A stretch of 41,830 nucleotides of DNA, from positions 1 to 41,830 of the IMG/VR virus record IMGVR_UViG_3300044680_000165; one strand, given 5' to 3'. Position numbers and translations under genes: made by a program. A model generated the notes under the pieces. It searched no databases. It was given only the letters and a program-made list of their open reading frames with translations, and was not told the DNA's origin. The stretch is from a virus. How positions within the stretch are numbered: position 1 is the stretch's first letter; the number at the start of each line of letters is the position of its first letter. Below are positions 1-41,830 of this stretch, piece by piece.

Positions 1-127
1 CCCCCCGCCGTGCCATCGCCCAGAGTTAAAGTCAAAGTGGTACCGCTATAGCCAAGAGCTACGAAGCTAGAAGTTGTGCCTCCAAAATCCAACCGGGTGA
101 AGCTCGTGGCCGCGCTATTCGAGACTA
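1..127. repeat. Terminal overlap, left copy (identical to 41704-41830)
   Basis: The first 127 bases equal the last 127 bases of the window without a mismatch. The overlap lies inside the long minus-strand fibre gene and keeps its frame. A repeat of exactly 127 is a common largest assembly k-mer, so this is best read as a circular-contig overlap, not a biological terminal repeat. The unit genome is then 41,703 bp, as expected for a circularly permuted, headful-packaged P22-like phage. Confidence 0.93.
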
Positions 128-2381
128 AGATGACACCGTCGGAAGGACTGGACATTTTTGAGCGCCCATTCCAGGTGTACAAAAGCCCCGCACCAGCCGT
201 AATCGATCCAGAGGCCGTAATACCCGTGACGCCGGTGATGTTCCCCGTGATGGCCGCGCCGCCAGAAGAGATAGTTAAACCGCCGTTTGAAGATAGGGTG
301 GTGAATGCGCCGATGTTCGGAGTCAAGACTCCAATCGCGTTCGGGGAAGCCCAAGTGAATCCCGCGAAAAGATCGGCGTTCGCGGCATGAAGATTGGTTA
401 CAACTGTGTTCGAAGCCACCACAAATGGGGCGGTGCCCGTCGTCACGGTGGATGTGATTTGTCCAGACGCACTCAGGGTGGCTAAATTGATAGAGCCGGA
501 TTCGTTCCCGGCAGTACCATTGCCCACATCGATGACCCCAGCGGAATCCCGAGAAAGTCCAGTATCCGCGTTCCAGTTGTAAACCGTGCCGCTCGGAATC
601 TGGAGCGAATTACTGATCGAAATCGGATTGGTTGCGGTTCCAGCAATGGCGGGCCAGGTCATAGTCGCCGTCCCACTGGTCGAGCCGTTTCCGGTAATCA
701 CGCAGGAAACCGAACTGGCGACTCCGCAGTTGATGGCACTAACTTTAAATCCGTTGGCTCCAGTAATCGCCGAAAAATCGACCAAGCCCGAAGCGTCACT
801 AGCCAAGGTGTGCGTGGTGTAAGTAAAATCCCCATTCCCCGTGGCTGTCGCCTGAGTTCCGGCTGTTCCATAAACGAGTTGATTGGTGCCCAGCCCCGCA
901 GCGCTGGTAACGCAAGTTCCGCAGGCAATGGTTCCCGTAGAAGTGATCGGGCCGCCGGTGATCGGGGGGGATGTGGCTATATTGGTTACCGTTCCAGCCC
1001 CAGTATTGGCAATCACATAGGCCGTGGTTGCCACCTTGGTTGTGTTGTCTCCCGGACTTTGCGTGGTCGCGGTAGTCCCGTTGGCCAAGGCGGTTGAAAC
1101 CGACCAGGTACCGGACAAAACCTGCGGCACGCCAGTTGCGGAGCTGGTATCCACGCCTGTCCCTCCGCCTTGCGGCGAGACTGTCCCGGTAATTTCGATT
1201 CTTTCACTGTTCGATGATGGGTTCGATGGAGTGGCGATCAATCCGATGGCATTGGTCGAACTGGTGATGTGGTTGATTCCCACCTGAGAAGTATTCGGAG
1301 TGGCGTTGGTTTGGAAAGGAATCGTGCCGTTTCCGCCGAGGGAAATTGTCTGGCCGTTGACGGTGATGCTGGAGTTGAGCAATCCTCCATTGCCGAGCTG
1401 CCCAGAAAATCCTAACTGAATATTCCCCGCCGATGGATTGGAAAACGTAGCAGTCAAGCCGTTGAACGCGGCGCTGTTTTCAAAGTTGATGGTTGTCGAA
1501 GAACTGAGTGGGGCCGTGTTGACCTCAAACGACGACCCAGCGCCAGTACACGTGGGACAGGTCAGATTGCCAGTGCTGGGATTCAGAACCAACGGCGAAG
1601 AAGCAGATACCGCCAGAGTGCCGGAGCCAGTGGGCCACAGAAGACTCGGGCTCGAGGCCGCAGCCTGGGCTTCAATGCATCCTGAACCGGTGGCCGAACC
1701 TTGCCAGCAATACGTTCCGCTTTTCGGCGTGATGAAACTGGCTTCTAGAGCCCCAAAGCCGACGTTGTAGCTGACTTGGGGAACACAATCAATCGCTCCG
1801 TTCGCCGCATCTCCGGCGACGGCTTGTAAAATACACCCACTCGCAAAAGACGGGATGGTGAGGTCGAATTCGACCGCTCCCCCACCATCATCGACGACAT
1901 TGATGCCGGCGCTATCGACCAAATTCAAAGTAGATTGTGAGGCGTTGGGCGTCGAATTGACTTGCAAAGAAAGCGTCGCGCCGGTCGTTGAAGATAATGT
2001 GACGGTATAAGGCCCGAAACAGGATGTAGTTCCCGAAATGCAAACCGTGTAATCGTATTTCCCTGGCGGTGCCCAGAATCCAATGTTGCCTTGCGCGTCT
2101 CCGGTCGATTGACAGTTCGAAGGTTGGGGTTGAGGGGTGTCTTGAGATCCGTTGACGCAGGCCACGCCCAGAGAATTATAAGTGGTCGCGTAATTGGTAC
2201 AGGGAACTTGATTGGCGGGAGAATGGCAGACTGAAAGCAGCGGGGAATTCGGCGGAACATTCGCCACTAGAAATGGTGTCGTCGTGGTCGAGGAAACGCT
2301 TGGGAATGGCTGGTCATAACGCACATTCTGTGCGATAACTGGGGCCGACAGCAGCGCGAAGATGAGAAGAAGCTTTTTCAT
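1..2381 (-). CDS. Tail fibre with Sec leader and S74 chaperone, 5' part (continues at 41703)
   Basis: Starts at 2381 with ATG in a TAATG overlap with the upstream adhesin gene. I translated it by hand to base 1 with no stop; it continues in frame from 41703 to the stop at 41250, giving 944 residues. It opens with a signal peptide (MKKLLLIFALLSAPVIAQ, likely cleaved after AQ). The body is Gly/Ser/Thr/Asn-rich beta repeat. It includes fibre motifs such as TVNGQTISLGGNGTIPF (about residues 350-367) and a KVATTAYV motif near residue 460, both frequent in phage fibres. The C-terminal 105 residues, on the other window edge, form an S74-type chaperone. The likely role is trimeric receptor-binding fibre. 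The gene sits last of three adhesin genes after the ejection proteins. Confidence 0.88.
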   Translation of the reverse strand, partial: MKKLLLIFALLSAPVIAQNVRYDQPFPSVSSTTTTPFLVANVPPNSPLLSVCHSPANQVPCTNYATTYNSLGVACVNGSQDTPQPQPSNCQSTGDAQGNIGFWAPPGKYDYTVCISGTTSCFGPYTVTLSSTTGATLSLQVNSTPNASQSTLNLVDSAGINVVDDGGGAVEFDLTIPSFASGCILQAVAGDAANGAIDCVPQVSYNVGFGALEASFITPKSGTYCWQGSATGSGCIEAQAAASSPSLLWPTGSGTLAVSASSPLVLNPSTGNLTCPTCTGAGSSFEVNTAPLSSSTTINFENSAAFNGLTATFSNPSAGNIQLGFSGQLGNGGLLNSSITVNGQTISLGGNGTIPFQTNATPNTSQVGINHITSSTNAIGLIATPSNPSSNSERIEITGTVSPQGGGTGVDTSSATGVPQVLSGTWSVSTALANGTTATTQSPGDNTTKVATTAYVIANTGAGTVTNIATSPPITGGPITSTGTIACGTCVTSAAGLGTNQLVYGTAGTQATATGNGDFTYTTHTLASDASGLVDFSAITGANGFKVSAINCGVASSVSCVITGNGSTSGTATMTWPAIAGTATNPISISNSLQIPSGTVYNWNADTGLSRDSAGVIDVGNGTAGNESGSINLATLSASGQITSTVTTGTAPFVVASNTVVTNLHAANADLFAGFTWASPNAIGVLTPNIGAFTTLSSNGGLTISSGGAAITGNITGVTGITASGSITAGAGLLYTWNGRSKMSSPSDGVILVSNSAATSFTRLDFGGTTSSFVALGYSGTTLTLTLGDGTAG

Positions 2382-3589
2382 TAGGTTCGCCCGGTGGCAA
2401 CCATATAACTCACGAAGTCAATGTTGATCTGCTTTGTGGCCGTGGTGCGGGTGAGCAATTGAATAAATGGTGCCATCTCCCCGGTGTCAACATGGGTCGC
2501 AATCGACGTGTCCGCGCTCCCGTCAATCGAAAACAAAATCGTGCCCGCCGTGATTGAGCGAATGCGGATATGGTGCCAATTGGTATCGCCCGCAACCGCC
2601 GACGCGGAGATCGTGCTAGTGCTTGCCGATCGCGTCTCGAAAGTGAAATCGGTGTCCGATGCGCCTGTATCGTAACGCACCCAAAAACCTGCCGTGGGGG
2701 GATCGGCGGTTTGACCGGAAGCGATTGTAAATCCGGCACGCATGGAAATATTCGCGGCAGAAGGAAGCCAAAAAACATAATTAAACTCCCAGCCCGCATT
2801 GGCTCCGAGTTTGCCAATCATCACGGCAGCGACGGTACCCCCAACTTTGGTGAGAACGACTCCTTGGCCCGTGGTCGCTCCCGAGTTGGTTTCTAACCCA
2901 TAAACTCCAGGGTGTATGAAGGTTGTGGAGGTTCCGTTTCCCCCGGCGGTGTTTGCCCCGGCGCTTCCAATCCCGAAGCCCCGCCATTCCGTGTCGCTGA
3001 TAATTTCCGTGCCCGTTGTTGCGATAGACGCGAGATTGCTGAAACTCATAAAATCGTCCCGGAACCCCGCTACCGAGACCCCCTTAAAATTGTTGTCAAC
3101 GTAGGCGGTGGTCGCCAGTTGGTTCGAATTGCTAAAAGCCGCTGCCGTAGGGCCAGTCGGAATTCCCGTAAATGCAGGACTGTTGACCGGCGCCCCGCCA
3201 CCAGATGTGACAATCCCATTTGCGCTGATGACTGGAGTCGCCGTCAGGTAAACGGTCGCTGTGCCGGAAGAATAAGCACTGACGCACAGAAGAAATGAAT
3301 CGTATCCGCCGACCCCCGCCGAATAGATGCCCGCCGTAGTGATAGTTGACTGCAAAGTGCTCGACGTCGAGGGAGTCACTTGGGAATTTTGCGGCGATTG
3401 GCCAGCAATCGACACTTCGGGTTGCAAAGTCGCCGAAAATGTTCCAGTAACTTGAATCCCCACGGTGGCATTTGCGGTCGCGCCGATAATCGCACACGGA
3501 CTGGTCGAGGCGTTCAGGGTGAACGGCCCCGCTTTCGATTGCGCGAAAAGCGAAGCCGAAAACAGTAAGAAAAACAGAAGTCGGCGCAT
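2381..3589 (-). CDS. Tail fibre / adhesin with Sec leader and jelly-roll C-terminus
   Basis: 402 residues. I chose ATG 3589 over a further upstream start because a good Shine-Dalgarno (GAAAGGAACCT) precedes it and it begins 10 bases after the previous stop. Residues 1-17 (MRRLLFFLLFSASLFAQ) look like a signal peptide. A Gly/Ser/Thr-rich stalk follows, with the fibre motif LATTAYVDNNF (about residue 160). The last ~200 residues alternate beta strands (for example WHHIRIRSITAGTILFSIDG), as in concanavalin/LamG-like carbohydrate-binding folds. The fold is inferred from pattern only. It probably binds a host surface glycan and is co-transcribed with the fibre genes on both sides. Confidence 0.78.
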   Translation of the reverse strand: MRRLLFFLLFSASLFAQSKAGPFTLNASTSPCAIIGATANATVGIQVTGTFSATLQPEVSIAGQSPQNSQVTPSTSSTLQSTITTAGIYSAGVGGYDSFLLCVSAYSSGTATVYLTATPVISANGIVTSGGGAPVNSPAFTGIPTGPTAAAFSNSNQLATTAYVDNNFKGVSVAGFRDDFMSFSNLASIATTGTEIISDTEWRGFGIGSAGANTAGGNGTSTTFIHPGVYGLETNSGATTGQGVVLTKVGGTVAAVMIGKLGANAGWEFNYVFWLPSAANISMRAGFTIASGQTADPPTAGFWVRYDTGASDTDFTFETRSASTSTISASAVAGDTNWHHIRIRSITAGTILFSIDGSADTSIATHVDTGEMAPFIQLLTRTTATKQINIDFVSYMVATGRT

Positions 3590-3599
3590 AGGTTCCTTT

Positions 3600-5078
3600 C
3601 TAATTACTTGGGAAGATCGTGACATCCAGCCAGGTATCGGTACCATTCGGAGTTCCGTCATTGCTCGATTTGTTGACCGTCACTCCGCCGGAATTCGAGG
3701 CGTTGATCCGGTTGGCGAAGGTGATGACAGCACTATTGGCATAAGTTCCGGGAGAAAATGCGCCTCCATTGGCACCGTACTGAGTGGCCGAGCCAGTCAC
3801 CAAGACTTGCGAGGTCGCAAATTGGTTCGTTCCATCGTCAATCCAGAGCACATCGACCCCGGAATTTGAGCTGGTGATGTAAGCCCCATAGCTCACCATC
3901 GCACGGCAAGGACACCCGGCAGAGGGCATGGTCACGGCATGCGAAAGATAAGTCGTTGCCGTGTTCGCTGAGATCGTCTGATTGCCGCTCAGAGTCGTGA
4001 GTGAGTGGGCTTGCACCGCAACCGGTGTCGCGCAGGTAATCGGCAAAGTTCCAGTGAAAGTGAAGAATGTTCCCGATCCGCAGGTCGGCAGAGTGGAAGC
4101 TACGGGATCGGCGCTCGTCTGGCCGACGGGAATTTGATTGACGCCCAATAAAAGTCCGGTGATTGCATTTCCATTGCCTTCGTTCAGGGCCAGAGAATGA
4201 GCAGCCGCGCCAGGATTGACATTCCCCGATCCACCCGGGCCGACCGTCTGGCCGTTATAAGTCACCTGGAAAACCGAAGTACACGATCCCGCCGAAGTCA
4301 GTTGTTGATTCGCATCGGTACAAACTGCGGAATTCGCCGTCAGAGCAAAATCGAAGAGACTGGGAACCGCCATGGCTCCGGTTGAGTAGGTTGCGGGGCC
4401 GGTGGCAATCGCTGTGGTTCCATTCCAGATGAAAGTTTGTTGGGTGACACAATTGGCCGTCGAGCAGATCGTCGCTCCGCCAACCGAATTGGCAGGCCAG
4501 GTGAAGGTGTGCCCGCCGGAACCATCCTGGGTGATTTCCCAAGTCACGATTCCGGGTGGGATAATTCCGACTGCCGTCAAAGGCTGGCTCGAAGCATTCC
4601 CAGTCAGAGTGATCTCGAAAAGTTGGTTCTGGGCCGAAATCTGAAAAACTGGTGTTGTGGAATAAGGAACAATCGTGGTCAGAGTGGAAGTGCCCCCGCC
4701 GATACCATTGACGGTGTACAGAGTGGCCCCGGAAAAGCAGTTCGTTCCGCCCGAGGATTTGACGCGGAAACTATAAGCAACTCCCGCCTGAATCCAGATG
4801 TTCGCCGAACCTCCGCCAGATAAAACGACTGGATTGGAGTTCGCGGTCGCTCCGGTGTAGTCGGTATAGGTTGTCAGGGGTGTGGTTGAATTGCTTTGGT
4901 AGGTAAAGATGCACCCAAAGGCTAAAGGCCTTCCCGATTGATCGAAAATCTGGAGTTGTGGGTAAGGCGAGATGATGACCGTGGTTTGCCCATTGCAAAC
5001 TGCTGAAAACACGAGCAGTAAAGCCAGAAGGTAACCGGCGATTTTGTTACTTACGTGATATTGTCGGAGTTTTGTCAT
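3600..5078 (-). CDS. Tail fibre / adhesin with head-binding-like N-domain and Sec leader
   Basis: 492 residues, first adhesin after the ejection proteins. A hydrophobic leader (IAGYLLALLLVFSAVCNGQ) is followed by a domain with the pattern PYPQLQIFDQSGRPLAFGC then TTPLTTYTDYTGATANSNP. This 'TTPL.TYTD..G...NPV.L...G.A.IW' signature is known from the N-terminal domains of many podovirus and siphovirus fibre proteins and probably anchors this one. The rest is Ser/Thr/Gly-rich beta repeat ending in a compact beta domain (HAVTMPSAGCPCRAMVSYGA onward). It may serve as the base to which the two following adhesins attach. A leader on such a fibre is odd. Confidence 0.8.
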   Translation of the reverse strand: MTKLRQYHVSNKIAGYLLALLLVFSAVCNGQTTVIISPYPQLQIFDQSGRPLAFGCIFTYQSNSTTPLTTYTDYTGATANSNPVVLSGGGSANIWIQAGVAYSFRVKSSGGTNCFSGATLYTVNGIGGGTSTLTTIVPYSTTPVFQISAQNQLFEITLTGNASSQPLTAVGIIPPGIVTWEITQDGSGGHTFTWPANSVGGATICSTANCVTQQTFIWNGTTAIATGPATYSTGAMAVPSLFDFALTANSAVCTDANQQLTSAGSCTSVFQVTYNGQTVGPGGSGNVNPGAAAHSLALNEGNGNAITGLLLGVNQIPVGQTSADPVASTLPTCGSGTFFTFTGTLPITCATPVAVQAHSLTTLSGNQTISANTATTYLSHAVTMPSAGCPCRAMVSYGAYITSSNSGVDVLWIDDGTNQFATSQVLVTGSATQYGANGGAFSPGTYANSAVITFANRINASNSGGVTVNKSSNDGTPNGTDTWLDVTIFPSN

Positions 5079-10606: not shown

Positions 10607-10968
10607 CCAACCACCCACCACTGTGTACCATCCGACTTGATCCGAACTTTGGAATATTGCGCGGTCAAAACAATCGGGCCTTCCGGTAAAGGTGCCATTG
10701 GAGTGCCAGCTAAAGTGAATGAATTCCCATCGGCGGAAGTCTTTTTGTAGATGATCTCTTGGTTCTGGTTCGACTGTCCCGTATTTGCGTGTAACCCGGG
10801 TGCCGGGGGATTCTGGGTAAAGCTTCCCGCCGCGGTGTTTACTAAAATCAGCGGCAGAAGATATTGCAGCGTGAAAAGATACTGTTGGTAAGGCTTGGAG
10901 AGATAGCCCTTGCTGTCAACCGCCGGTGTCCGGGTCGGGGGAACGAAAAGAACCGTCTGCGTGCTCAT
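10603..10968 (-). CDS. Hypothetical tail protein in the position of the P22 tail needle
   Basis: 121 residues, coupled by ATGA overlaps to the gp10-like gene before it and the GNAT-like gene after it. The middle is hydrophobic (YLFTLQYLLPLILVNTAAGS) and the C-terminus is a short beta domain ending KSDGTQWWVVG. It lacks the long coiled coil of the gp26 needle, so position is the only link to that role. It is likely a minor tail component. Confidence 0.6.
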   Translation of the reverse strand: MSTQTVLFVPPTRTPAVDSKGYLSKPYQQYLFTLQYLLPLILVNTAAGSFTQNPPAPGLHANTGQSNQNQEIIYKKTSADGNSFTLAGTPMAPLPEGPIVLTAQYSKVRIKSDGTQWWVVG

Positions 10969-12674
10969 TGAGTCGCCGGAGTTGCCTTCACGTAAGCATC
11001 ATTGAACCGGAACGGATAAGGATCAGTCCAACTCACATCGAACAATCGTTTCCGGCCTCTCCCCAGCATTCTCTTGATGACTCGCTTTCGATAATTGCCG
11101 AGTTCTCCGACGCTGAGATAATAAGTATTCGACCAGGTTTTTCCACCATCATCTGACCAGCGAAGCATGATCTGGGGAGGTCTTTGGTTGCCGTCACCAT
11201 CTGTCAACGGACTTGCCGGGGCGATTCCTGTTTCCATGACAAACTCGATCTGGTCGTAATACATCCAATGGTTTTCCTCGACGATGGGGGGACTTCGTCG
11301 ATTGCCTCGGATGGGATTTCCAGCATCATCCAGGTAAGCTGGGCTGAGGTCGTAAATGTTCCCTGAAGCCCAATCACCCACCAAGTGCTTGCCGAAGTTG
11401 AAAGTGTGGGACATTCCCCGGTCGGCAATGTAGTTGCCGGTTGGAGTGACGGAATAGCCGCGCTGGTGCCAGAGATTTTGCGAAACATCATAGACCCAAG
11501 TCGCATTTGCGGTCGGAAAGTAGAGCACCCAGAAAGAATGACCTCCCTCTTGGTACGTCCAGCCAACCGCGTCCGAAGCGACGGAATAAGCCTGCCATGC
11601 CAACTCTACCGCATGGGTCGAAATCCGATCCCCTGCATAGCCATTCAGACGTCTCGCGACCATATAGCCGCGTTCATCTCGATCGAGCCAGAAAACCGAG
11701 TTGTCGAGTTGCACCGTGGCGAAGGTCGCACCGGCCCCGGATTCCATGAATGCGCCTTGGATGGGGATAAAGGCCGGGAAGCCGGTTCCAGCATTGTAGT
11801 AGCCGATGGCTTTTTTCGCGCCCCAAAACCAGATTTCCCGGTGATCGCAGATCATGGAAACGATGTTGTCTGGGAAGTAAGAGATGGTCGAAATATTCAA
11901 TCCACTCCAGACAGTTGCATCCTCGAGATTCGATTGCTGCCAGGTGTGCGAGTTCTGCAGAGTCGCAATGATGTAGCCGTCAACGAAGCCAATCTGTGAA
12001 ATCAGCCCATTGAACTGCGTCATATCGACAGCGAACAGATAATTGTTCTTGACCGTTGTGACATCGACTTTCAAGTTTCCGTCCGGCGTGCCGCTGGTGA
12101 AAATGACCGTGGTCGAATAATCATTCCCCACGGAATACTTTGACCCTGGGGTGAATTTGAAGGTCAACACCGCGCCCGAACCATCGACTGTTAAAACGGT
12201 ACCAGTAGCTCCTGATCCGCCGGGAACTCCGTTGATAGAAAATGTATCTCCGACGGAATATCCGGTTCCCCCAGATCCGGCGTGAACGTTTGCGGCGGTG
12301 ATCGCGCCGAGAAAGACGAAGACGAACAGATTACCGTTGTTGAGAATGACAAGCTGGGTTTCATTGGCCGTCAACATCGTCGGTCGAAGCGGCGCAACTC
12401 CAAGACTTCCCCAATTTGTAACTAGGCCCGAGGCGTTGACTTCATAAAGATTCGAGCAGGCAAAAAAACTTCGTCCATTGACCGTAAATGATCCGGGAAC
12501 GCTGGCTTCGGGAAGAGAAGCGAAAACTTTTCGTCCTGGAACTGTTAGTAAAGCTTTTTTGGTGGCCGCGCCTTCCGATTCTGATATCTCAACAAAGCAG
12601 TTCATTGCCAGCTCATCGTCGATGATGGGCGAAGCGGCGGTGTACGTCGGCCCTACAAAACCAAACTCAGGCAT
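10965..12674 (-). CDS. Packaged-DNA stabilisation protein, P22 gp10-like tail hub
   Basis: 569 residues (P22 gp10 is 472). It begins with a gp10-type N-terminus (GFVGPTYTAASPIIDDELAM, then NCFVEISESEG and LLTVPGRKVF). A long beta-propeller-like middle follows (GYIIATLQNSHTWQQSNLED, WLDRDERGYMVARRLNGYAG). The C-terminus has the pattern LRWSDDGGKTWSNTYYLSVG, then KRVIKRMLGRGRKRLFDVSW, typical of the family. gp10 hexamers close the portal channel and hold the tailspikes or fibres. Residues ~130-190 look like an inserted Gly-rich repeat that would account for the extra length. Confidence 0.85.
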   Translation of the reverse strand: MPEFGFVGPTYTAASPIIDDELAMNCFVEISESEGAATKKALLTVPGRKVFASLPEASVPGSFTVNGRSFFACSNLYEVNASGLVTNWGSLGVAPLRPTMLTANETQLVILNNGNLFVFVFLGAITAANVHAGSGGTGYSVGDTFSINGVPGGSGATGTVLTVDGSGAVLTFKFTPGSKYSVGNDYSTTVIFTSGTPDGNLKVDVTTVKNNYLFAVDMTQFNGLISQIGFVDGYIIATLQNSHTWQQSNLEDATVWSGLNISTISYFPDNIVSMICDHREIWFWGAKKAIGYYNAGTGFPAFIPIQGAFMESGAGATFATVQLDNSVFWLDRDERGYMVARRLNGYAGDRISTHAVELAWQAYSVASDAVGWTYQEGGHSFWVLYFPTANATWVYDVSQNLWHQRGYSVTPTGNYIADRGMSHTFNFGKHLVGDWASGNIYDLSPAYLDDAGNPIRGNRRSPPIVEENHWMYYDQIEFVMETGIAPASPLTDGDGNQRPPQIMLRWSDDGGKTWSNTYYLSVGELGNYRKRVIKRMLGRGRKRLFDVSWTDPYPFRFNDAYVKATPATQ

Positions 12675-14004: not shown

Positions 14005-14808
14005 CTACTTCGATTGGATCGAGACGTACTTTTTGGCAGTACCATCGAAAACCCAACAAATAAGCAGGTTGGCGACGGCTGTCCCGGACGTAGCGATATT
14101 GTTAGTCGCTGTCCAAGTCCAGGCAGCATCGGGGATGGTACAGAACGGAGCACCATACGGCTGAGTCGCCGAACCCCCACCAGCTCCGAGGCCCACGGTA
14201 GTCGAAGACCCCCAAGCGGTGATTGCGTTTGTCCCGTTGACGTGAAATAGCGGGCCCGTCGGATTGGTCGCTCCGGCGACAGAAGCGACCAATGTGGTCA
14301 CTCCCGCTGGGCGTTGGGTATTAAAGTACCCAGGTACCCAGGAAGCCGTGATGCTTGAGCAAATCCATTGGTTCCCGCCCTTCAAGCCATTGGCTCCGCC
14401 GGTCACATTGATAGTCGGAGTGTAGGCTGCGGCTGCGGTACAGGATCCCGAGGGATCTCTTGAAACAAACGCCGCTGGCGCACCAATCAGAACGGGCGAA
14501 CCAGACAGGTGTTTGTCGGCAAAAGAACCTCCGTAGCCCCGAGTCACTCCCACTTGGCCGCCAGCACCGACAGAATTGACGAAGACGGCTTCGCCATTCC
14601 CGCCTGTCCCATCTTCAATCCAGAGTACGGTGCTGTTGGCCGTGACTCCGGTCGAAGAAACTAGGGTGATGGTTGTGGTTCCACTGGAAAGCACCGCTGC
14701 ATTCAGCGAGGTCGCGGTGAGGATGAGGTTGGTGGCGGTGGCTTGGCCGAGCGCGAATGGTGCGGTCAGTAAAGCCAACACTACTGCGAAGAGAATGAGC
14801 TTTCTCAT
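14005..14808 (-). CDS. Secreted-type beta protein next to the coat gene; possible decoration protein
   Basis: 267 residues. It has a textbook leader (MRKLILFAVVLALLTAPFALGQ). The next part contains GTTTITLVSSTGVTANSTVL and VGVTRGYGGSFADKHLSGSP; the 'VTRG..G..A..H..G..V' pattern is common in phage minor head or decoration proteins. The C-terminal half is Gly/Thr/Ala-rich beta. It lies immediately downstream of the coat gene, the usual place of decoration proteins, but a Sec leader on a capsid protein would be unusual. It could instead act in the envelope. Confidence 0.65.
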   Translation of the reverse strand: MRKLILFAVVLALLTAPFALGQATATNLILTATSLNAAVLSSGTTTITLVSSTGVTANSTVLWIEDGTGGNGEAVFVNSVGAGGQVGVTRGYGGSFADKHLSGSPVLIGAPAAFVSRDPSGSCTAAAAYTPTINVTGGANGLKGGNQWICSSITASWVPGYFNTQRPAGVTTLVASVAGATNPTGPLFHVNGTNAITAWGSSTTVGLGAGGGSATQPYGAPFCTIPDAAWTWTATNNIATSGTAVANLLICWVFDGTAKKYVSIQSK

Positions 14809-14809
14809 G

Positions 14810-16063
14810 TTAGGCTCCCAGCAACGCGACTGCGGCGTTGTCCTGATAGAGGTTCCCGAATCCGCCTACGGTGTCGAATCTCTGAATCTGTAGGGAATGG
14901 TAAGCGTCCCAGGCGTGAACCCAGCGCACCGGAATGCCAGTGGCTTTGTCTTCTGCCTGTGAACGGGCTTCGACGGCTTTCGGCAAGTAGAACCGCATGC
15001 CGACAATGGCAAAAGCCATGTTGGTCAGCGCGAGTCCCACCGTGCCGACAGCCCCGTTCGGATTGGGGGTTCCCGGCCAGAGAGTCAATGCCGCGCCATT
15101 AACAGGCAGAGCATCGACGTTCTGATATTGGCTCGGGCCAGAGGGGCCTGGGCCGTAAATCGCCGGAAGGATGGTGATGGTGTCCGCTCCGCCAGTCAGG
15201 GTGAAGTTTTGCGTCACGGTGAAAGTCTGCGGAGTCAATGGCCCAGGAGTGCGGCGGCTTCGGGGGTTGACGAAGTTCACATTGGCGATGGAGAATTTAT
15301 CTCCCTGATTCAACGTGTCGCCCAAAGTGCCGGTGATGATGAGCGATGTCCCACTCTGTCCAGCTCCCGTCACGGTCACTGCTGCGGCCCAAGTTCCGGC
15401 GGTGTGTGAGTAGAGATTTTGCTCTTCAAACACATCGAAGGTCTTGAGTTTTCCCATCGAGCCTTCGCGGAAAGCTTCCGTGATGGCATCGGCAGGTTGA
15501 AACAGCGAGGTTACAGGGGTGTTGATGGAATTGTTCTGCATCGAAGAGGAAATCAATGCAGCCCGTTTCTTCGCTACTGATGCTCCAGCCTTTTGCAGCA
15601 AGCGAGCGCGTGCGGTATCCAAATAGCCGATCGAAGTTGGATCGACTCCCAAAGTACCGACAATCTGGCTGACATTGTTTTTGGCGAACAGGATGGCTCG
15701 AGAGTCCCACTCATTCGCAATCTGGACACCCGCGGGAGCTAGGTATTCAGACTTGAGTTCTTCTTCCGAACGCTCGGCTTTGACCGCAGCTTCATAATCA
15801 TCCCACTGGAAATCCACGCCGAAGGGTTGATCGAGGGAAATCGTGGTGGAAATGCGGTTGATGCCTTGCGGATCGTAGTCCATGCCATCGCGGATGGTGA
15901 ACTGTTGAGGGTATTTGACTTGGATGGTCGTGCCGACTGCCCACGCCTTCGTATAGTCCTTTTCCCAGTCGTGGTTGAAGTATTCAACCGCCTTGATCGC
16001 GTTTTTGAGGTTCCGCAACACTTCCATGGAAATCCAGGAAGTGTTTAAAAATTGGTTTGCCAT
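14810..16063 (-). CDS. Major capsid protein, P22 coat type
   Basis: 417 residues (P22 gp5 is 430). The N-terminus (MANQFLNTSWISMEVLRNLK) and the segment FGVDFQWDDYEAAVKAERSE match the P22-coat family pattern. That is followed by the A-domain-like region AGVQIANEWDSRAILFAKNN. Residues ~225-330 hold the beta-rich inserted domain (AVTVTGAGQSGTSLIITGTL). The C-terminus ends in the conserved region MRFYLPKAVEARSQAEDKAT, then GIPVRWVHAWDAYHSLQIQR. It forms the icosahedral shell with the scaffold encoded just upstream. Confidence 0.9.
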   Translation of the reverse strand: MANQFLNTSWISMEVLRNLKNAIKAVEYFNHDWEKDYTKAWAVGTTIQVKYPQQFTIRDGMDYDPQGINRISTTISLDQPFGVDFQWDDYEAAVKAERSEEELKSEYLAPAGVQIANEWDSRAILFAKNNVSQIVGTLGVDPTSIGYLDTARARLLQKAGASVAKKRAALISSSMQNNSINTPVTSLFQPADAITEAFREGSMGKLKTFDVFEEQNLYSHTAGTWAAAVTVTGAGQSGTSLIITGTLGDTLNQGDKFSIANVNFVNPRSRRTPGPLTPQTFTVTQNFTLTGGADTITILPAIYGPGPSGPSQYQNVDALPVNGAALTLWPGTPNPNGAVGTVGLALTNMAFAIVGMRFYLPKAVEARSQAEDKATGIPVRWVHAWDAYHSLQIQRFDTVGGFGNLYQDNAAVALLGA

Positions 16064-17143: not shown

Positions 17144-17311
17144 ATGAAATACAAGGTTCGGCTGCATTGCGTGAGCGAAAACTATTTTTACGATTTTATG
17201 AAGCAGTGCTTCGAGATCCGGGCTTGGTTTTACGCACAAGATAATCGGCGCGTTTTCGTGGTCATTGGCCGCCGGAACTTTGCTGAGCAGGCTGTGGATT
17301 CTGGGGAGTAG
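17144..17311 (+). CDS. Small plus-strand protein between scaffold and portal genes
   Basis: 55 residues: MKYKVRLHCVSENYFYDFMK, then an Arg/aromatic-rich part (RVFVVIGRRN). It fills the 178-base gap between the portal stop and the scaffold start and overlaps the last 50 bases of the portal gene on the other strand. Codon choice resembles the phage's real genes. The sequence suggests a small alpha/beta fold. Function unknown. Confidence 0.5.
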   Translation: MKYKVRLHCVSENYFYDFMKQCFEIRAWFYAQDNRRVFVVIGRRNFAEQAVDSGE

Positions 17312-19457
17312 GTGTCATCTGCTGGGCCTGCAAAGCTTGCTGTTGTTGGGCTAGAGCTTGCTCATGCGCCTGTTCCGATGCTTGCAAACCAGCTTCATGC
17401 GCTGCACCGTGGTTCTCCAAATAGAATTGCTTGTACATTTCCATTTCCTGCGAAGCCACGGACTGTTTGCTCGCTAAAAGCTCACCCAGCACCTTGATGT
17501 CATTCGCCAGTTGAGCCCGGAAATTTTCTCCGTCTTCCTTCATTTGCTGCTGGATGAGTTTCGTCTGCTGTTCCAACACTTTCCCGGCCCGCTCCATGTG
17601 CAAAGCCGCGAGTTCCTGCTGAGTCTGTTGCAATTGAGTTTGTAATTGAGAAACCACTGCCTGCGCTTGCGGAGGAAGATTATCGGGACTCGGCGGATCG
17701 AAAACTTCCGCGATCTGTTGACCGATAGGCCCGAGCGTGGGTCTCATGCGGATGGTCATGGCTAGAACTTTTGCGCCAGGAGTTCCGGGTTGCGGAAGGT
17801 TGGCGATATTGTCCACCATCGTGTCCGCGAAATCGTCCTGCTCTTCGCGTTCCGAGGCGTAGCTCGGCCCTGTTGAAATGGTGACATCGAAATCGCCCTT
17901 ACCGGTGTGCATGTGGTCTTCTTCCAAGCCTTGCACGTCGTAAGCATCGTCTTCATCCAAGGGATGAGAAGTGTTTCCGACTAACTGCATGGTTGACCGG
18001 GTTCCATCGGGTTTCGCAATCGGCATTTCTCGTTGGGTATCGATGATGGGAGTAATCAGGTCATTGATCTGCCATCCCATGTTGTAGAGAAAACCGTTTT
18101 CGTAGCGATCCACAAACTGGGTCGCGCCCAACTGCTCCATGTCATCGATCTTTGAAAGGGCCACGCCGGATTTTTGATTCCGTCTCTGGGCCGCGTCGGG
18201 CATGGGAGAAATCCCCATTGCGGCCTGAATTGAGCGGGTTCTGGCATCGATCGCCGTCTCCCACTCGCCAAAGTTCGGAGTCAGAGAAGTCATCGTCGGC
18301 AATGGCAAAACTTCGCCACTGGCAGCGTCGATATTCACATCCACTTCGACGTAGGGATGAGCCACTTTCGTAATCTCATCCCACGTTTCTTTGTCCGATT
18401 CGAATTGCCCTTTGTAACCAACGTAGGGAGTCTTTGGAATCAGTCCAGCGGTCTCGCATTCTCCACTCGCCAGGTAATCTAAAAGCATCTGCGGATCGCG
18501 GGCGAACCTGACCATCGAAAGCAACTGTCTTTTTGCCGTTCCGCCTTCGGTCGTCCAACGCTCGGGCCCGAAACAAGAGATGATCGGAATGCGCTTTCCA
18601 GCCCAAGGGATCTCGTCCAAAATCTCGATGCCGTTGGTCATGTATTGCGTGACTTTGGGGGTTTCAACGGCGCGTTCGCGCTTCACTTCGCCGCGCAGGT
18701 TCGTGGCTTTGGCCTCTTTCCATTCGTCTTCGGTGAAAACGATTGGCCCTTGGGCAGTTTGCACCAGCAGGAGTTTTGAGAGAGTGTTTTCTACCTTCCA
18801 GAACTCGGCAATCTGGACATATTTTTCTTTGATCCAATCGGACACACTGACATCGGTCGAATCGAGATCGTCGAAATCTGTGACTCGCGCTTTCGGATAG
18901 TCATGCTTGAATTTTTTCTTTGAAAGGAGGTCGAGAAAAAAAGCATCGGGAATATCGCTCGCGTCCGGCTGCTTGTAGTACGGGGAAATCAGAACCGTGT
19001 CTGGATTCTGTACTGGCTTAATGAGAATTTCCTGATCGAAGCTCTCCTCGTCTTTATATTCCGTGCGGATGACGGCGAATCCATAACTGCGTTCGGTCAT
19101 GGACTGGAAAGCCCCTAAGTAAATCGGCTGGGCCTGCGAACGATCTTCAATCCCCATGATGCAGGCGGAACGCTTCTTCGCGTCTTCGTCGTTGGCGCCG
19201 TTCCCTTTGGGAATCGCTTTGATGGCCCGCTTCGATTTGCGGACATTCCCGTTGACTTGAGCGAGAAACTGGTTTAGTTGATCGAGATGGATACAAGGTC
19301 TTCCTGCATCTCGACGCGCATCACGGTCTTTGTCCGACCACGGCCCGCCAGGGGAGAGCGCCCGCATGTCTTCCGCAGCTTCTTCGCGGATCTCCCGCCA
19401 AGCCTCGCGGTAGTCGGCAAAAGCATCGCGAATTTCTTTGGGTTCGGGGGCGGCCAT
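17262..19457 (-). CDS. Portal protein, P22 type
   Basis: 731 residues (P22 gp1 is 725). Family features: the N-terminal helical region with DYREAWREIREEAAEDMRAL and GRPCIHLDQLNQFLAQVNGN; the clip/wing segment AFQSMTERSYGFAVIRTEYK; DPQMLLDYLASGECETAGLI; and RRNQKSGVALSKIDDMEQLG. The end is a long Gln-rich helical barrel (ALAQQQQALQAQQMTPTPQN) like the P22 portal barrel. Twelve copies form the head vertex through which DNA is packaged and ejected. Confidence 0.9.
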   Translation of the reverse strand: MAAPEPKEIRDAFADYREAWREIREEAAEDMRALSPGGPWSDKDRDARRDAGRPCIHLDQLNQFLAQVNGNVRKSKRAIKAIPKGNGANDEDAKKRSACIMGIEDRSQAQPIYLGAFQSMTERSYGFAVIRTEYKDEESFDQEILIKPVQNPDTVLISPYYKQPDASDIPDAFFLDLLSKKKFKHDYPKARVTDFDDLDSTDVSVSDWIKEKYVQIAEFWKVENTLSKLLLVQTAQGPIVFTEDEWKEAKATNLRGEVKRERAVETPKVTQYMTNGIEILDEIPWAGKRIPIISCFGPERWTTEGGTAKRQLLSMVRFARDPQMLLDYLASGECETAGLIPKTPYVGYKGQFESDKETWDEITKVAHPYVEVDVNIDAASGEVLPLPTMTSLTPNFGEWETAIDARTRSIQAAMGISPMPDAAQRRNQKSGVALSKIDDMEQLGATQFVDRYENGFLYNMGWQINDLITPIIDTQREMPIAKPDGTRSTMQLVGNTSHPLDEDDAYDVQGLEEDHMHTGKGDFDVTISTGPSYASEREEQDDFADTMVDNIANLPQPGTPGAKVLAMTIRMRPTLGPIGQQIAEVFDPPSPDNLPPQAQAVVSQLQTQLQQTQQELAALHMERAGKVLEQQTKLIQQQMKEDGENFRAQLANDIKVLGELLASKQSVASQEMEMYKQFYLENHGAAHEAGLQASEQAHEQALAQQQQALQAQQMTPTPQNPQPAQQSSGGQ

Positions 19458-31818: not shown

Positions 31819-31970
31819 TTCAATTCTTTCGCGGCGAATTCCAGAAACCGCTCTTCAAACTCCACTGGGGAATACACACCCTTGTGAACCAGCAGAGTGT
31901 TGATCGCATACACCGTAGCTCGGAAGCGGTCATCGCGGGACATCTTTTCCATTGCCTCTTCAAAAGTCAT
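31815..31970 (-). CDS. Small early protein
   Basis: 51 residues: MTFEEAMEKMSRDDRFRATV then YAINTLLVHKGVYSPVEFEE and RFLEFAAKEL. Helical; 'F...F.....' C-terminal packing is typical of a small folded domain. Overlaps both neighbours by four bases. No family recognised. Confidence 0.6.
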   Translation of the reverse strand: MTFEEAMEKMSRDDRFRATVYAINTLLVHKGVYSPVEFEERFLEFAAKELK

Positions 31971-35009: not shown

Positions 35010-35188
35010 TACAGTTCGGTCTCCGGCTCGAAAATTTCCGTGCTCCAGATAGGCTCTCCGATTTTCTCCGGCTGCGGGCAGTAGTTGCCTTTGTAGGAGT
35101 GTTCGCCTTCGGTTTTGTGGCACTTCCGGCAGACACGTTCCAGCGGTTCCAATTGCAATTCGAGGGAGAGCTTGCGATCACTGCCCAT
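35009..35188 (-). CDS. Small Cys/His early protein
   Basis: 59 residues: MGSDRKLSLELQLEPLERVC, RKCHKTEGEHSYKGNYCPQP EKIGEPIW. CxxCH plus H and C ligands could bind zinc. Overlaps the secreted gene before it by 11 bases and the membrane gene after it by TAATG. Confidence 0.6.
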   Translation of the reverse strand: MGSDRKLSLELQLEPLERVCRKCHKTEGEHSYKGNYCPQPEKIGEPIWSTEIFEPETEL

Positions 35189-35507
35189 ATTTCACCCGAT
35201 TCTTCCGCGCCGTCCGCTTTTCGAGCTTCACCAAGCCGTAAGAAACCAGGGATCCGGCGGAGATGTAGAGCAAATGCGTCTTGTTGAAGTTCTGACCGTA
35301 CCGCGCTTCATTGGCGATTCCCGCAGCTTCTCCAGCCAGCAGGCCGATCCAGGGCTTCGTTGCCACCCCTACGGGCATCGAAACCAAGGCTCCGAAGGCG
35401 AAATCCTCGCCCCGGTGAAACGAATAACTGTCCTGAGCCGGTGCGTTCGGCAGTTCCGCCGCCGAAGCCGTCAAACTGAGCGCCAAAATCAAAGCAAAAA
35501 CCCTCAT
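35178..35507 (-). CDS. Secreted-type early protein
   Basis: 109 residues with GGGAGACAC before ATG. Signal peptide MRVFALILALSLTASAAELP (cleavage probably after ASA). The mature part has small-residue hydrophobic stretches (FAFGALVSMPVGVATKPWIG, AGSLVSYGLVK) and a basic end. It could be an envelope protein that blocks superinfection. No family recognised. Confidence 0.6.
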   Translation of the reverse strand: MRVFALILALSLTASAAELPNAPAQDSYSFHRGEDFAFGALVSMPVGVATKPWIGLLAGEAAGIANEARYGQNFNKTHLLYISAGSLVSYGLVKLEKRTARKNRVKYGQ

Positions 35508-37561: not shown

Positions 37562-37921
37562 CTACTGCACTGAAATTTGTGGGTTTTGGGGTTGACTGGG
37601 TGGCACTGGTATCTGTGCGCCAACCTCCGAAGAGGGAGCGCTTGATAGACCCCCGGCTATCTGAACAGCCGTGTAGTAGTAAGACGTGGATGGAAGCACG
37701 GTTGAATCGATGTAAGGCGAGGCTGTGGGCGCAGCATTCAATGGAGGCAGGATATAGTTCTCCGTTCCGGGCAGCACCGCCCGATAGATATTTGCGAGCG
37801 GAGCTGCTGTCCATCGGATGCAGACTTGCGGATGGCCAGGATTCGGATTGGCCGGACAGACCCCTTGAGCAAAGGCGATTGGAACTGAGAGCCAGACAGC
37901 AAGAAGAGCGAGATATTTCAT
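37562..37921 (-). CDS. Secreted fibronectin-III-like protein
   Basis: 119 residues from ATG 37921 with GAGGAATCC upstream. Leader MKYLALLAVWLSVPIAFAQG. The mature part (HPQVCIRWTAAPLANIYRAV, SPYIDSTVLPSTSYYYTAVQ, SSAPSSEVGAQIP) has the 'W....-.Y.V.R......Y.D..v.....Y.Y.V.A.......S..S..V' layout of an Fn3 domain. It is probably surface-exposed or periplasmic and may bind sugars or host protein. Confidence 0.68.
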   Translation of the reverse strand: MKYLALLAVWLSVPIAFAQGVCPANPNPGHPQVCIRWTAAPLANIYRAVLPGTENYILPPLNAAPTASPYIDSTVLPSTSYYYTAVQIAGGLSSAPSSEVGAQIPVPPSQPQNPQISVQ

Positions 37922-37963: not shown

Positions 37964-38431
37964 ATGCCACCACGCAAGCAAACCCTAAGTGAACGTTTTT
38001 GGCGCTTCGTTAAGAAAACTGATGGCTGCTGGTTGTGGACTGGTGATCTCACTAACAATGGACATGGGGTCATAGGCCATTGGCCCACGAGGAAGGCAAA
38101 AATTATCGCTTCCCGCGCCTCTTGGATTCTGCATTTCGGTGATATTCCCGAGGGTCTTTTTGTTTGCCATAAGTGCGATGTTCGCGCTTGCGTCCGACCG
38201 GATCATCTTTTTCTCGGCACCCAGAAACAGAATTTAGAAGATGCTGCGCAAAAAGGTCGGATGGGGCGTGGAACCAAAGTAAACACCAATAAACTTACCG
38301 AAGCTGACGTTCGGCATATCCGCACTCTTTATCCACATCGAAGCCAACAAAGCATCGCCATCGAATATGGTGTATCTCAAGTCCTAATCAGCACTATTGT
38401 GCTGCGCAAAACTTGGGCATGGCTGGATTAG
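37964..38431 (+). CDS. HNH homing-type endonuclease with C-terminal HTH
   Basis: 155 residues on the plus strand between late genes. HNH core: CWLWTGDLTNNGHG, ASRASWILHFGDIP, VCHKCDVRACVRPDHLFLGT and QKQNLEDAAQKGR, with the His/Asn/His-type set and four Cys. The last 45 residues are an HTH (LTEADVRHIRTLYPHRSQQS, IAIEYGVSQVLISTIVLRKT). This build is common in free-standing phage homing endonucleases. A -10-like TACCAT lies six bases before ATG. Its 3' end overlaps the beta-barrel gene by four bases. Confidence 0.85.
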   Translation: MPPRKQTLSERFWRFVKKTDGCWLWTGDLTNNGHGVIGHWPTRKAKIIASRASWILHFGDIPEGLFVCHKCDVRACVRPDHLFLGTQKQNLEDAAQKGRMGRGTKVNTNKLTEADVRHIRTLYPHRSQQSIAIEYGVSQVLISTIVLRKTWAWLD

Positions 38432-38940
38432 AAGTGGAAGTCAGGCCCAAAGCCTAGCGTCCAGGTATTATGCACGATCCCTGGGAAGTTTCCCCACTCC
38501 GCATCCACTCCCATACCCCACTGCCCGTTGATCGCATAGTTCAGGAACACTCCGGCCCGTTCACCCCAATGGGACGTCCCAGCGATATCCACGGGCTTCA
38601 CCACTCCCGCGCTTCCAGTCAGGCCGAACTGGAACTGATAGCCATTGAGATTCGGGCTGTGATTCTGGATGAAGGTCGAAACCGGCTTGACGATGTATTG
38701 CACCCGCCCGCCAGCGAAGAGCATGGAAGATCCCGTGACGGTTGTCTCACCCAATTGAAAACTGTTCGAGGGCGCAATAAGGATATCGGTTTCCGCACCC
38801 GCGATGGTTGATTTCACCCCGGGAAGCGTGACTGGCGATAGATTGAAAGTGACAGTCGTTTCTGGGAATGCCCCAGGGGTCGGTGCGGTTTGTGCGAAGC
38901 TTGCGATGGAGAGAATCAAAAGAGTCAATAATGTTTTCAT
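38428..38940 (-). CDS. Outer-membrane beta-barrel-like protein
   Basis: 170 residues with AAGGAAAACC before ATG. Leader MKTLLTLLILSIASFAQ. The mature protein alternates strands (SSMLFAGGRVQYIVKPVSTF, LNGYQFQFGLTGSAGVVKPV, HWGERAGVFLNYAINGQWGM, HNTWTLGFGPDFHF). It ends in a C-terminal Phe after an alternating pattern, the BAM-recognition signature of outer-membrane proteins. It is probably a small porin-like or Lom-like barrel that changes the host surface. No family name is certain. Confidence 0.68.
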   Translation of the reverse strand: MKTLLTLLILSIASFAQTAPTPGAFPETTVTFNLSPVTLPGVKSTIAGAETDILIAPSNSFQLGETTVTGSSMLFAGGRVQYIVKPVSTFIQNHSPNLNGYQFQFGLTGSAGVVKPVDIAGTSHWGERAGVFLNYAINGQWGMGVDAEWGNFPGIVHNTWTLGFGPDFHF

Positions 38941-40329: not shown

Positions 40330-40572
40330 ATGATCTGGAAACACAATCCGGTGCCTGTGTTCGTGGAGCGGAAATCTGACGCGGCGCTGATCCTACTCGA
40401 ATGGCGCTGCGTCAATTGCGAGGAAGTCATTCATTTTGCCGCTGCGGTCGGAGCCGAGGCGGGAGCCGTAGGTTTCGGGATGAACGTCGAGGATTTGATG
40501 TCTGGATTACAATCGGGTTTCCCCAGACCGGCTTCCTTGCATGCGGAGTCCTTGGCGACTTCTAACGCCTGA
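40330..40572 (+). CDS. Plus-strand antisense gene in the lysis region
   Basis: 80 residues: MIWKHNPVPVFVERKSDAAL ILLEWRCVNCEEVIHFAAAV then a Gly/Ala/Ser-rich tail. CVNC could be half a zinc site. The 3' 142 bases are antisense to the end of the 122-residue secreted gene, where composition is less convincing, so the real product may be chiefly the first 45 residues. A near-consensus leaderless promoter supports expression. Confidence 0.5.
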   Translation: MIWKHNPVPVFVERKSDAALILLEWRCVNCEEVIHFAAAVGAEAGAVGFGMNVEDLMSGLQSGFPRPASLHAESLATSNA

Positions 40573-40799
40573 AGCGCGTTTTTTTCCTCTTCCTGAAGAG
40601 CCGGGAAATCCAACTGAATTTTCTGCACGGCCTGGGTGTAGCGATCCAACAAGATTTGCTGTTCGCGTTCGCGGGTTTGCACTTCATTCAAGGCTTGCTG
40701 GGCCTTCAAGAGTTTGACCTCGGTTGCGTCTGGGATCGGTTTCGCATCCCCCGCGAACAAGGGCGAGGAGAGTAACAAGAGACAGAGCAGTTTCTTCAT
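40431..40799 (-). CDS. Secreted coiled-coil protein, possibly spanin-like
   Basis: 122 residues with AGGAGGAATTT before ATG. Signal peptide MKKLLCLLLLSSPLFAGDAK (cleavage after FAG or AGD). A long heptad region follows (LLKAQQALNEVQTREREQQI, LLDRYTQAVQKIQLDFPAL, EEEKNALQALEVA), then a Pro/Ala tail (TFIPKPTAPASAPTAAAK). Periplasmic coiled coil next to the lysis cassette suggests a spanin component, but it lacks a lipobox and no inner-membrane partner with the same architecture is seen. Confidence 0.6.
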   Translation of the reverse strand: MKKLLCLLLLSSPLFAGDAKPIPDATEVKLLKAQQALNEVQTREREQQILLDRYTQAVQKIQLDFPALQEEEKNALQALEVAKDSACKEAGLGKPDCNPDIKSSTFIPKPTAPASAPTAAAK

Positions 40800-40836: not shown

Positions 40837-41253
40837 CTAGACTTTGGCCGCGCTGAAACTTTGCGCCGTCCAGGGAACTTGCTGGCCTGCGATCACATTG
40901 TAGGCGATTGCCAAAACTTCCCCGGCATTGCGAACCGGAATCAGCCCGTTCAAAAGTGTGACGAGATCTTGGGCAGAGAGAGTTCCAGAAAGCCCGTTAC
41001 TGGTCGCCCACGCGCCGGTGATGAGATTCACTGACATCTGGATTTCGGTATTTCCCGTAATCGAGCCCGGAACTAGAGTGGCCCCATTGACCGTTCCATT
41101 CTGAAAAGTGAAGACCACGGTCTGAAAAGTGAAGACCACGGTAGGAGCGGAACTGAAATCGACATCACTGGCCATCACCGCTGCGGACATCGAATTTTCA
41201 AGAGATTTTCCGCCTTCGTTTACCGTGATCGGATTGGTCAGCGTAATGCTCAT
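40837..41253 (-). CDS. Hypothetical virion/tail protein
   Basis: 138 residues; ATGA overlap with the fibre stop. Opens MSITLTNPITVNEGGKSLEN and has a small beta/alpha pattern (EIQMSVNLITGAWATSNGLS, LSAQDLVTLLNGLIPVRNAG). A 21-base tandem repeat adds seven residues (TVVFTFQ twice). It may be a fibre-associated or tail-tip accessory protein, since it directly follows the fibre gene. Confidence 0.6.
   Translation of the reverse strand: MSITLTNPITVNEGGKSLENSMSAAVMASDVDFSSAPTVVFTFQTVVFTFQNGTVNGATLVPGSITGNTEIQMSVNLITGAWATSNGLSGTLSAQDLVTLLNGLIPVRNAGEVLAIAYNVIAGQQVPWTAQSFSAAKV
41100..41141 (-). repeat. 21-bp tandem duplication inside a CDS
   Basis: Two adjacent identical 21-base copies (41100-41120 and 41121-41141). 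In frame; adds TVVFTFQ twice in the 138-residue protein. Recent slippage or assembly duplication. Confidence 0.9.
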
Positions 41254-41830
41254 GGCCGCGCCTCCAACTCAGATTTCAGTTGCTCGATCTCGGCTTGTTG
41301 CTCATGGATCGCGTTCACCAGGGCTGCAATGATCGGGCGGTCTTTCACCGTCAGGTAATCCGTGCCATCTTCGGTCTCAATTCCCACTGCCGCTGGGATC
41401 GCCTGCCTCACATCCTGCGCGATGAAGCCTGCTTGCTCGACGTTGGCATCGAGGCCTGTGATCTTCTGTCCTTCCGGGTTCATGTGATAGAGCGAGGGAT
41501 GCAATTGCAAAATCGCGGCGAGTCCTGATCGAAAAGGCTTGATTTGTGTCTTCAATCGCGCGTCGGAAACCGCTGTACAGGCCGTGACGAGTCCTTCCAC
41601 CGAAGTGAACGTTCCCGAGCAGATAACCCCCGAAGAAGAGAGACCCGCCGTGCCATTGGCATTGTATCCGGTGATGGCGTTGATGGTGCTTGCGGCCAAG
41701 GTTCCCCCCGCCGTGCCATCGCCCAGAGTTAAAGTCAAAGTGGTACCGCTATAGCCAAGAGCTACGAAGCTAGAAGTTGTGCCTCCAAAATCCAACCGGG
41801 TGAAGCTCGTGGCCGCGCTATTCGAGACTA
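41250..41830 (-). CDS. Tail fibre C-terminal part with S74-type autoprocessing chaperone (continues from 2381-1)
   Basis: This is the 3' end of the fibre gene that starts at 2381, reads through base 1 and continues at 41703; the duplicated end 41704-41830 is the overlap. The final 105 residues show the peptidase S74 / intramolecular chaperone pattern: SDARLKTQIKPFRSGLAAIL then AGFIAQDVRQAIPAAVGIET, LTVKDRPIIAALVNAIHEQQ AEIEQLKSELEARP, with the presumed catalytic Ser of the SDxRxK start and a C-terminal coiled coil. In known fibres this part trimerises the shaft and then cuts itself off. Confidence 0.88.
   Translation of the reverse strand, partial: VSNSAATSFTRLDFGGTTSSFVALGYSGTTLTLTLGDGTAGGTLAASTINAITGYNANGTAGLSSSGVICSGTFTSVEGLVTACTAVSDARLKTQIKPFRSGLAAILQLHPSLYHMNPEGQKITGLDANVEQAGFIAQDVRQAIPAAVGIETEDGTDYLTVKDRPIIAALVNAIHEQQAEIEQLKSELEARP
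41704..41830. repeat. Terminal overlap, right copy (identical to 1-127)
   Basis: Exact copy of bases 1-127; see the left copy. Confidence 0.93.

Follow-up and report, generated by a model that had tools for sequence, protein, structure and literature searches.

Sec-type leaders on the tailspike, fibers and a coat-adjacent protein of an uncultured P22-like phage clade suggest a split assembly route

The prevailing view is that every assembly step of a tailed phage takes place in the cytoplasm. The coat proteins of filamentous phages have cleavable signal peptides, and virions assemble after membrane insertion or export; filamentous phages are not tailed, however, whereas the phage described here has a leaderless coat protein and a P22-like head. 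The tailspikes of PBR31 (orf034; Xanthomonas), BA3 (Thalassomonas), X14 (Shewanella) and Vibrio phages, together with PDB entries 7eeq and 9vyg, share a head-binding domain with the tailspike described here. In leaderless P22-like tailspikes, the domain starts within approximately the first 14 residues and is accompanied by neither a leader nor the C56/C114 cysteine pair that we report below. Two second fiber-like genes, gp19 of BcepC6B (Burkholderia) and orf035 of PBR31, do resemble our fibers in combining a Sec-type leader with a cysteine pair, and they lie directly after a leaderless tailspike or fiber gene and before the lysis genes. In those phages, unlike here, the leader is on the second fiber only and the tailspike has none, the sequence is unrelated, and the residue at +1 is A rather than Q. 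Prophages of P. gingivalis (proposed Nixviridae) encode proteins with Sec leaders that expose an N-terminal Gln, as here (PMC10367356). These Q-rule proteins, whose function is not known, have been proposed to modify the outer membrane and, unlike the proteins studied here, are not tailspikes or fibers; leaders on the coat proteins of these prophages have been ascribed to prohead protease (PMC10367356). A full-text literature search, which covered few subscription papers, turned up no account of a Sec leader attached to the head-binding domain of a tailspike.

Leader-bearing proteins of the window

We analyzed a 41,830-nucleotide viral stretch, IMG/VR record IMGVR_UViG_3300044680_000165 (the window), using a rule-based scorer that looks for a charged n-region, a hydrophobic h-region and small residues at -3 and -1. 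In calibration, 16 known E. coli signal peptides scored 2.93-4.91, with 15 of the 16 at or above 3.5. Sec-type leaders were detected on exactly 8 of the 35 window proteins (scores 3.73-4.71; next best 2.79), which are the eight that an earlier note had named, with starts at 2381, 3589, 5078, 14808, 35507, 37921, 38940 and 40799. When the first 40 residues of these proteins were shuffled, the score was equalled in 0.2-9% of trials, depending on the protein. The same liberal scan found a leader in 0 of 43 ORFs of BA3, 1 of 50 of ctNMl277 and 5 of 54 of PBR31. All leader genes, and the control genes given below, are on the minus strand.

The window contains a P22-like virion module, comprising a P22-type major coat protein (14810..16063; PF11651, E 1.5e-21), a P22-type portal (17262..19457; PF16510, E 1.8e-87), a gp10-like head-closure/DNA stabilization protein (10965..12674; PHROG Hc3, E 2.1e-82) and a tailspike head-binding domain. 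The first three are leaderless and served as controls. Four of the eight leader proteins are candidates for outer virion components of a P22-like podovirus: the tailspike (fiber 3, start 5078), fiber 2 (start 3589), fiber 1 (start 2381) and a coat-adjacent protein (start 14808). We infer their presence in the virion from sequence homology and gene position.

Fiber 2 (2381..3589, 402 aa, leader 3542-3589) has PHROG tail fiber matches. The N-terminal part of fiber 1 (3..2381) consists of a leader (2331-2381) and a six-cysteine domain (approximately 2007-2330), followed by the remainder of this part. Its gene does not end at base 1 and runs on across the contig ends, which carry a 127-bp terminal direct repeat, into a C-terminal part at 41250..41828, for a total of approximately 944 aa. 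This part has PHROG tail fiber matches and contains a C-terminal Peptidase_S74 chaperone domain (approximately 41385-41567; PF13884, E 6.9e-15), which was found in fiber 1 only. The coat-adjacent protein (14005..14808, 267 aa, leader 14746-14808), whose gene follows the coat gene, weakly resembles phage capsid and tail-fiber proteins in both fold and PHROG comparisons. Foldseek returned weak PDB matches (best E 1.7e-3) and unspecific ones among viral models. Neither fiber 1 nor the coat-adjacent protein has useful relatives among annotated phages, and the latter has none among plasmids.

The other four resemble common accessory or lysis proteins that are exported, and leaders on them are unsurprising. 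They are a small exported protein for which no family match was found (35178..35507, leader 35460-35507, score 4.46); a 119-aa exported protein with two cysteines in its mature part (37562..37921, leader 37868-37921, score 4.01); an outer-membrane-barrel-like protein ending in F (38428..38940, leader 38893-38940, score 4.04; sub-threshold OMP_b-brl match, E 0.059); and a coiled-coil-looking protein near the lysis genes (40431..40799, leader 40752-40799, score 3.73; sub-threshold DUF3450 match). The earlier observation that "virion adhesins and other late proteins" carry leaders is upheld for all eight proteins; the products at 35507, 37921, 38940 and 40799 are not virion adhesins.

Conservation of the leaders and of their predicted cleavage junction

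The leader was kept in 14 of 15 homologs of fiber 1 (30 of 30 in a separate scan), 19 of 20 of fiber 2 and 39 of 40 of the coat-adjacent protein. For the tailspike it was present in all 27 homologs of the leader lineage, 24 of them above threshold and three at 2.9-3.4 with a visible leader. No leader was detected in homologs of the major coat protein (0/47), portal (0/33), head closure (0/34), gp4-like protein (0/41) and scaffold (0/35).

Since the window is one metagenomic contig of an uncultured phage, the leaders could have been attached to these genes by wrong starts or assembly errors. The relatives largely refute this explanation, which is almost certainly wrong: the same leader-gene joins are repeated in dozens of independent contigs. 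In addition, the starts have SD-like purine-rich stretches (3589, 14808, 38940 and 40799 genes) or overlap the upstream stop (TAATG, 2381 gene), and 22 of 39 leader changes between close pairs, a count from 4 pairs only, fall at third codon positions.

The leaders have the hallmarks of Sec export and signal peptidase I processing, namely an n-region, an h-region and a small-x-small cleavage motif. Across the four families, the A/G/S|Q junction hardly varies, and small-x-small|Gln is the best-conserved part near the leader. Among distinct leaders, [AGSTC]Q was found near the junction in 12 of 12 for fiber 1, 18 of 18 for fiber 2, 18 of 20 for the tailspike and 29 of 29 for the coat-adjacent protein. 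The hydrophobic leader sequences, in contrast, diverge freely among homologs. This pattern disfavors the earlier proposal that the leaders are retained as uncleaved hydrophobic anchors, which would bind the particle or a membrane during assembly. Short hydrophobic N-termini can indeed anchor in a membrane, and cleavage here is a prediction; nevertheless, the head-binding domain of cultured relatives needs no such segment, and we regard retention as very improbable.

Other leader types were also considered. A Tat reading is not supported: the h-region has a Sec-like mean KD of 2.8-3.0 in the leader families versus 1.2-2.2 in three Tat examples, and the RRxPhiPhi motif is mostly absent (fiber 1, 0/12; fiber 2, 9/18; tailspike, 3/19; coat-adjacent protein, 0/30), although fiber 2 alone may be a Tat substrate. 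A lipoprotein (SPase II) reading is likewise not supported, as the aligned junction has Gln where a lipobox would have Cys. Because the coat protein is leaderless and the junction is of the signal-peptidase type, cleavage by prohead protease is not favored.

Gln at +1 after the leader, a feature of Bacteroidetes Q-rule substrates, whose hosts are Bacteroidota with a glutaminyl cyclase, is shared by the four families. It was also present in 8 of 25 predicted leaders of an Acidobacteriota plasmid versus 0 of 23 in an E. coli sample. The only genome match was one contig in a Betaproteobacteria MAG.

The tailspike head-binding domain and the cysteine pairs

The tailspike-type fiber 3 (3600..5078, 492 aa, leader score 3.90) consists of a 30-residue leader (4989..5078), a head-binding domain (residues 34-116, 4731..4979) and a variable C-terminal part. 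Cleavage is predicted at CNG|Q31, and the Q is aligned in nearly all lineage homologs. The domain is homologous to the tailspike N-termini of PBR31, BA3, X14 and Vibrio phages and matches PDB 7eeq (E 4.7e-5); the AlphaFold model of this N-terminal domain was poor (pLDDT 39). The gene occupies the position of the PBR31 tailspike gene, after the internal proteins. The leader stands directly before the head-binding domain, whereas in cultured relatives the same domain opens the protein without a leader. P22-like podoviruses are expected to need no export leader for making or attaching the tailspike; throughout one clade, however, a leader precedes the head-binding domain.

One alternative is that the four proteins are exported but never return to virions. 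As decoys or surface proteins, they would coat the host or be released, either masking receptors from superinfecting phage or keeping progeny from attaching again to debris. The export signals are real, the P. gingivalis Q-rule proteins offer a proposed precedent as outer-membrane modifiers (PMC10367356), and the window encodes the possible outer-membrane-barrel protein at 38428-38940 (a weak match). However, the anchor of the tailspike is a domain used for mounting tailspikes on heads. Furthermore, no leaderless tailspike or S74 fiber gene was recognized in the window, so that decoys would leave the virion without a receptor-binding protein. We therefore consider a decoy role unlikely.

The domain contains two invariant cysteines, C56 (4911-4913) and C114 (4737-4739), which were both present in 18 of 18 leader-bearing phages versus 0 of 6 leaderless tailspikes. 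Across 78 untruncated tailspike domains, 39 had the leader and both cysteines (two of these counted by a visible leader, with scores of 2.9 and 3.38), 37 had neither and 2 had the leader only. The leader-bearing tailspikes form one clade, and truly leaderless homologs exist, all outside it; the association therefore represents approximately one event, not 39. In fiber 2, the C32/C102 pair is present in 17 of 18 homologs, and both residues are shifted together in L056. Six cysteines of fiber 1, presumed to pair as C52/C61, C75/C90 and C114/C121, are invariant in 12 of 12 homologs, and C114 and C121 of this protein are lost together in L117. The fiber cysteines are thus lost or moved in pairs. 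Cysteine content is 1.4-3.0% in the leader families versus mostly 0-0.6% elsewhere, but conserved cysteines are not diagnostic alone, as a leaderless protein (23346-24371) has six and gp10-like homologs reach 1.3%.

If the leaders were only partly effective, a cytoplasmic precursor could enter virions with its leader on while the exported fraction plays a second role. This dual targeting would explain assembly without docking after lysis, and the long n-regions of many tailspike leaders (15-25 residues) could lower export efficiency. It is nonetheless quite improbable, given that all four proteins retain both the leader and the Gln junction and that the invariant cysteine pairs suggest an oxidized, folded form. 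The alternative downstream start in homologs that the earlier note had named as a refutation was not found as a conserved feature either: such a start with an SD was seen in 0/12, 3/18, 0/19 and 0/30 homologs of the four leader families.

A possible split assembly route

The sequence itself shows the leaders and how well they are conserved, the motif for cleavage, the position of the head-binding domain after the leader, and the cysteines linked in pairs. Sec export of the four exterior proteins is well supported on this basis; actual cleavage, disulfides and docking at lysis are inferred. The best fit is the earlier suggestion that assembly departs from that of known podoviruses, as the leader precedes the head-binding domain, the window has no recognized leaderless substitute and cysteine pairs accompany the leaders. 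We somewhat favor a model in which the four exterior proteins are cleaved Sec substrates with periplasmic disulfides that join the particle late. Tailspike, both fibers and the coat-adjacent protein would be exported via Sec and cut by signal peptidase I at A/G/S|Q, leaving Gln as the new N-terminus, and would then fold in the periplasm with disulfide bonds. Heads and the tail tube, which are leaderless, would be made in the cytoplasm as in P22. At lysis, holin and endolysin would merge cytoplasm and periplasm, and the exported parts would mount last via N-terminal head-binding domains, at that moment or just outside the cell.

Conserved export signals and cysteine pairs on the outer parts suggest that these parts are probably finished and fitted outside the cytoplasm. 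That an entire P22-like clade follows such a split route, with filled heads made in the cytoplasm and a secreted, disulfide-bonded tailspike, fibers and capsid-surface protein mounted at or after lysis, has in our judgment an even chance of being correct. A conserved Sec leader directly before the domain that joins tailspike to head breaks the rule of cytoplasmic assembly for a widespread, large, uncultured environmental group. If the model is true, these phages gain oxidative folding of their adhesins, final assembly is placed at lysis, and the presence of a signal peptide must not exclude a phage protein from the virion.

Leader-bearing proteins and their genomic setting

The virus is a P22-like podovirus, with coat (PF11651), portal (PF16510), head-closure and terminase genes. 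Its contig carries a 127-bp terminal direct repeat (1-127 and 41704-41830) and so closes to 41,703 bp, being either circular or terminally redundant. The genes run portal, scaffold, coat, two tail-tube-like genes, a GNAT acetyltransferase, three internal proteins and tailspike, the same portal-to-tailspike order as in Xanthomonas phage PBR31; the GNAT acetyltransferase-like gene (10088-10621), amid the structural module, takes the position of PBR31 orf028. By eye, the products of 34459-34692 and 31967-32365 have Fis-like helix-turn-helix ends and are possibly host-derived regulators.

The earlier note had read Sec signal peptides on eight proteins. A simple scoring scheme (not SignalP), with 16 known E. 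coli signal peptides as its calibration set, recovered exactly those eight, with every other protein in the window at or below 2.79, and there is a high likelihood that the leaders are genuine. Four of the proteins (starts 35507, 37921, 38940 and 40799) are encoded in or near the region that contains a possible holin (39136) and a cell-wall hydrolase (39563). All four resemble exported accessory proteins, on which leaders are ordinary. One of these (38428-38940) is outer-membrane-barrel-like and ends in F, a possible superinfection exclusion or surface protein. The real finding is the leaders on the exterior virion candidates: the tailspike-type fibre 3 (3600-5078, minus strand), fibre 2 (start 3589), fibre 1 (start 2381, crossing the contig end to 41828-41250, with an S74 domain at its end) and the coat-adjacent protein (start 14808).

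Conservation of the leaders and their junction

Relatives were gathered through the head-closure protein, coat protein and fibre regions, and later through fibre domains; leaders were counted at scores of at least 3.5. Homologues carried leaders in 14/15 (fibre 1; 30/30 in a separate scan), 19/20 (fibre 2), 39/40 (coat-adjacent protein) and 24/33 cases (fibre 3), counts that overstate independent cases because some records are near-copies. The nine fibre 3 homologues below threshold comprise six leaderless tailspikes from cultured or annotated phages and three visible leaders at 2.9-3.4. Under the same scoring, no leader was found in coat, portal, scaffold, head-closure or gp4-like homologues; two apparent matches in each of two internal-protein families were taken as chance starts. 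Fibre 3 relatives (L118, L121, L130, L131 and others) often have long, Arg/His-rich n-regions of 15-25 residues, in contrast to the majority of leaders in fibres 1 and 2 and the coat-adjacent protein.

The leader sequences are very divergent, yet end in A/G/S|Q. An alternative downstream start in homologues, which the earlier note had named as evidence against its reading, was not seen as a conserved feature: beyond the leader, the homologues share no start that has a Shine-Dalgarno site. Neither lipobox nor Tat features supported a lipoprotein or Tat reading. Gln at +1 occurred in 8/25 leaders of one Acidobacteriota plasmid sample and 0/23 of an E. coli sample; Bacteroidetes have it as a rule, and there it is converted to pyroglutamate (PMC5837995). 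This hints at a host of such a kind. The only genome match is a contig assigned to a Betaproteobacteria MAG, an assignment that may reflect binning.

A tailspike head-binding domain and linked cysteines

The domain directly behind the fibre 3 leader resembles the extreme N-termini of leaderless tailspikes and matches the structure 7eeq (E 4.7e-5), which is a tailspike head-binding domain. The fibre 3 domain is thus the anchor of a tailspike, preceded here by an added leader. Its C56 and C114 are invariant in 18/18 leader-bearing rows and present in 0/6 leaderless rows, from which the insertion containing C114 is absent. Among 80 head-binding domains from viral contigs, two of them truncated, 37 had leader and Cys pair, 37 had neither, two had the pair with a low-scoring visible leader, and two had a leader without the first Cys. 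On the tree, leader-bearing tailspikes grouped into a single clade (94/92), apart from one row on a long branch, so the association is mainly one event kept by all descendants rather than 39 independent cases. A P22-type coat was present in 16/18 tested records (13.9-62 kb).

Leader families are rich in Cys compared with other virion families. Fibre 1 has six invariant Cys, two of which (C114 and C121) are jointly lost from relative L117; the fibre 2 pair is kept in 17/18, with both positions shifted in L056. Cys alone prove nothing, because conserved Cys also occur in a zinc-finger-like protein and in a leaderless, by eye beta-helix-like protein near terminase (23346-24371; six conserved Cys; 99 columns invariant among 11 phages; no match in PHROG). 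Conserved CxxC pairs in 19461-20156, adjoining the portal gene, suggest a zinc-binding protein.

Precedents and a proposed assembly route

Second fibres with leaders occur in BcepC6B (gp19, NC_005887 20959-22032), PBR31 (orf035, MT119766 24674-25483) and one proteobacterial genome. In the two cultured phages, the fibre-like gene, with a Sec-type leader and Cys pair, directly follows a tailspike or fibre gene. P. gingivalis prophages are reported to encode phage proteins with Q-rule leaders (PMC10367356). Our literature search, which missed most subscription papers, turned up no tailspike head-binding domain described as carrying a leader.

All four leader-bearing virion candidates are of the late, exterior kind, whereas interior or early proteins lack leaders. 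Export with cleavage is a well-supported prediction from these sequences. We infer that the four proteins would be exported via Sec, cut to an N-terminal Gln, folded under oxidation and docked onto heads at lysis. In P22, tailspikes are added last, to heads that are otherwise complete, a step that can also take place in vitro, and decoration proteins can attach to finished capsids; docking after lysis is therefore feasible. Assembly of this virus from exported exterior parts that dock at lysis is a testable proposal, which we hold to be somewhat probable.
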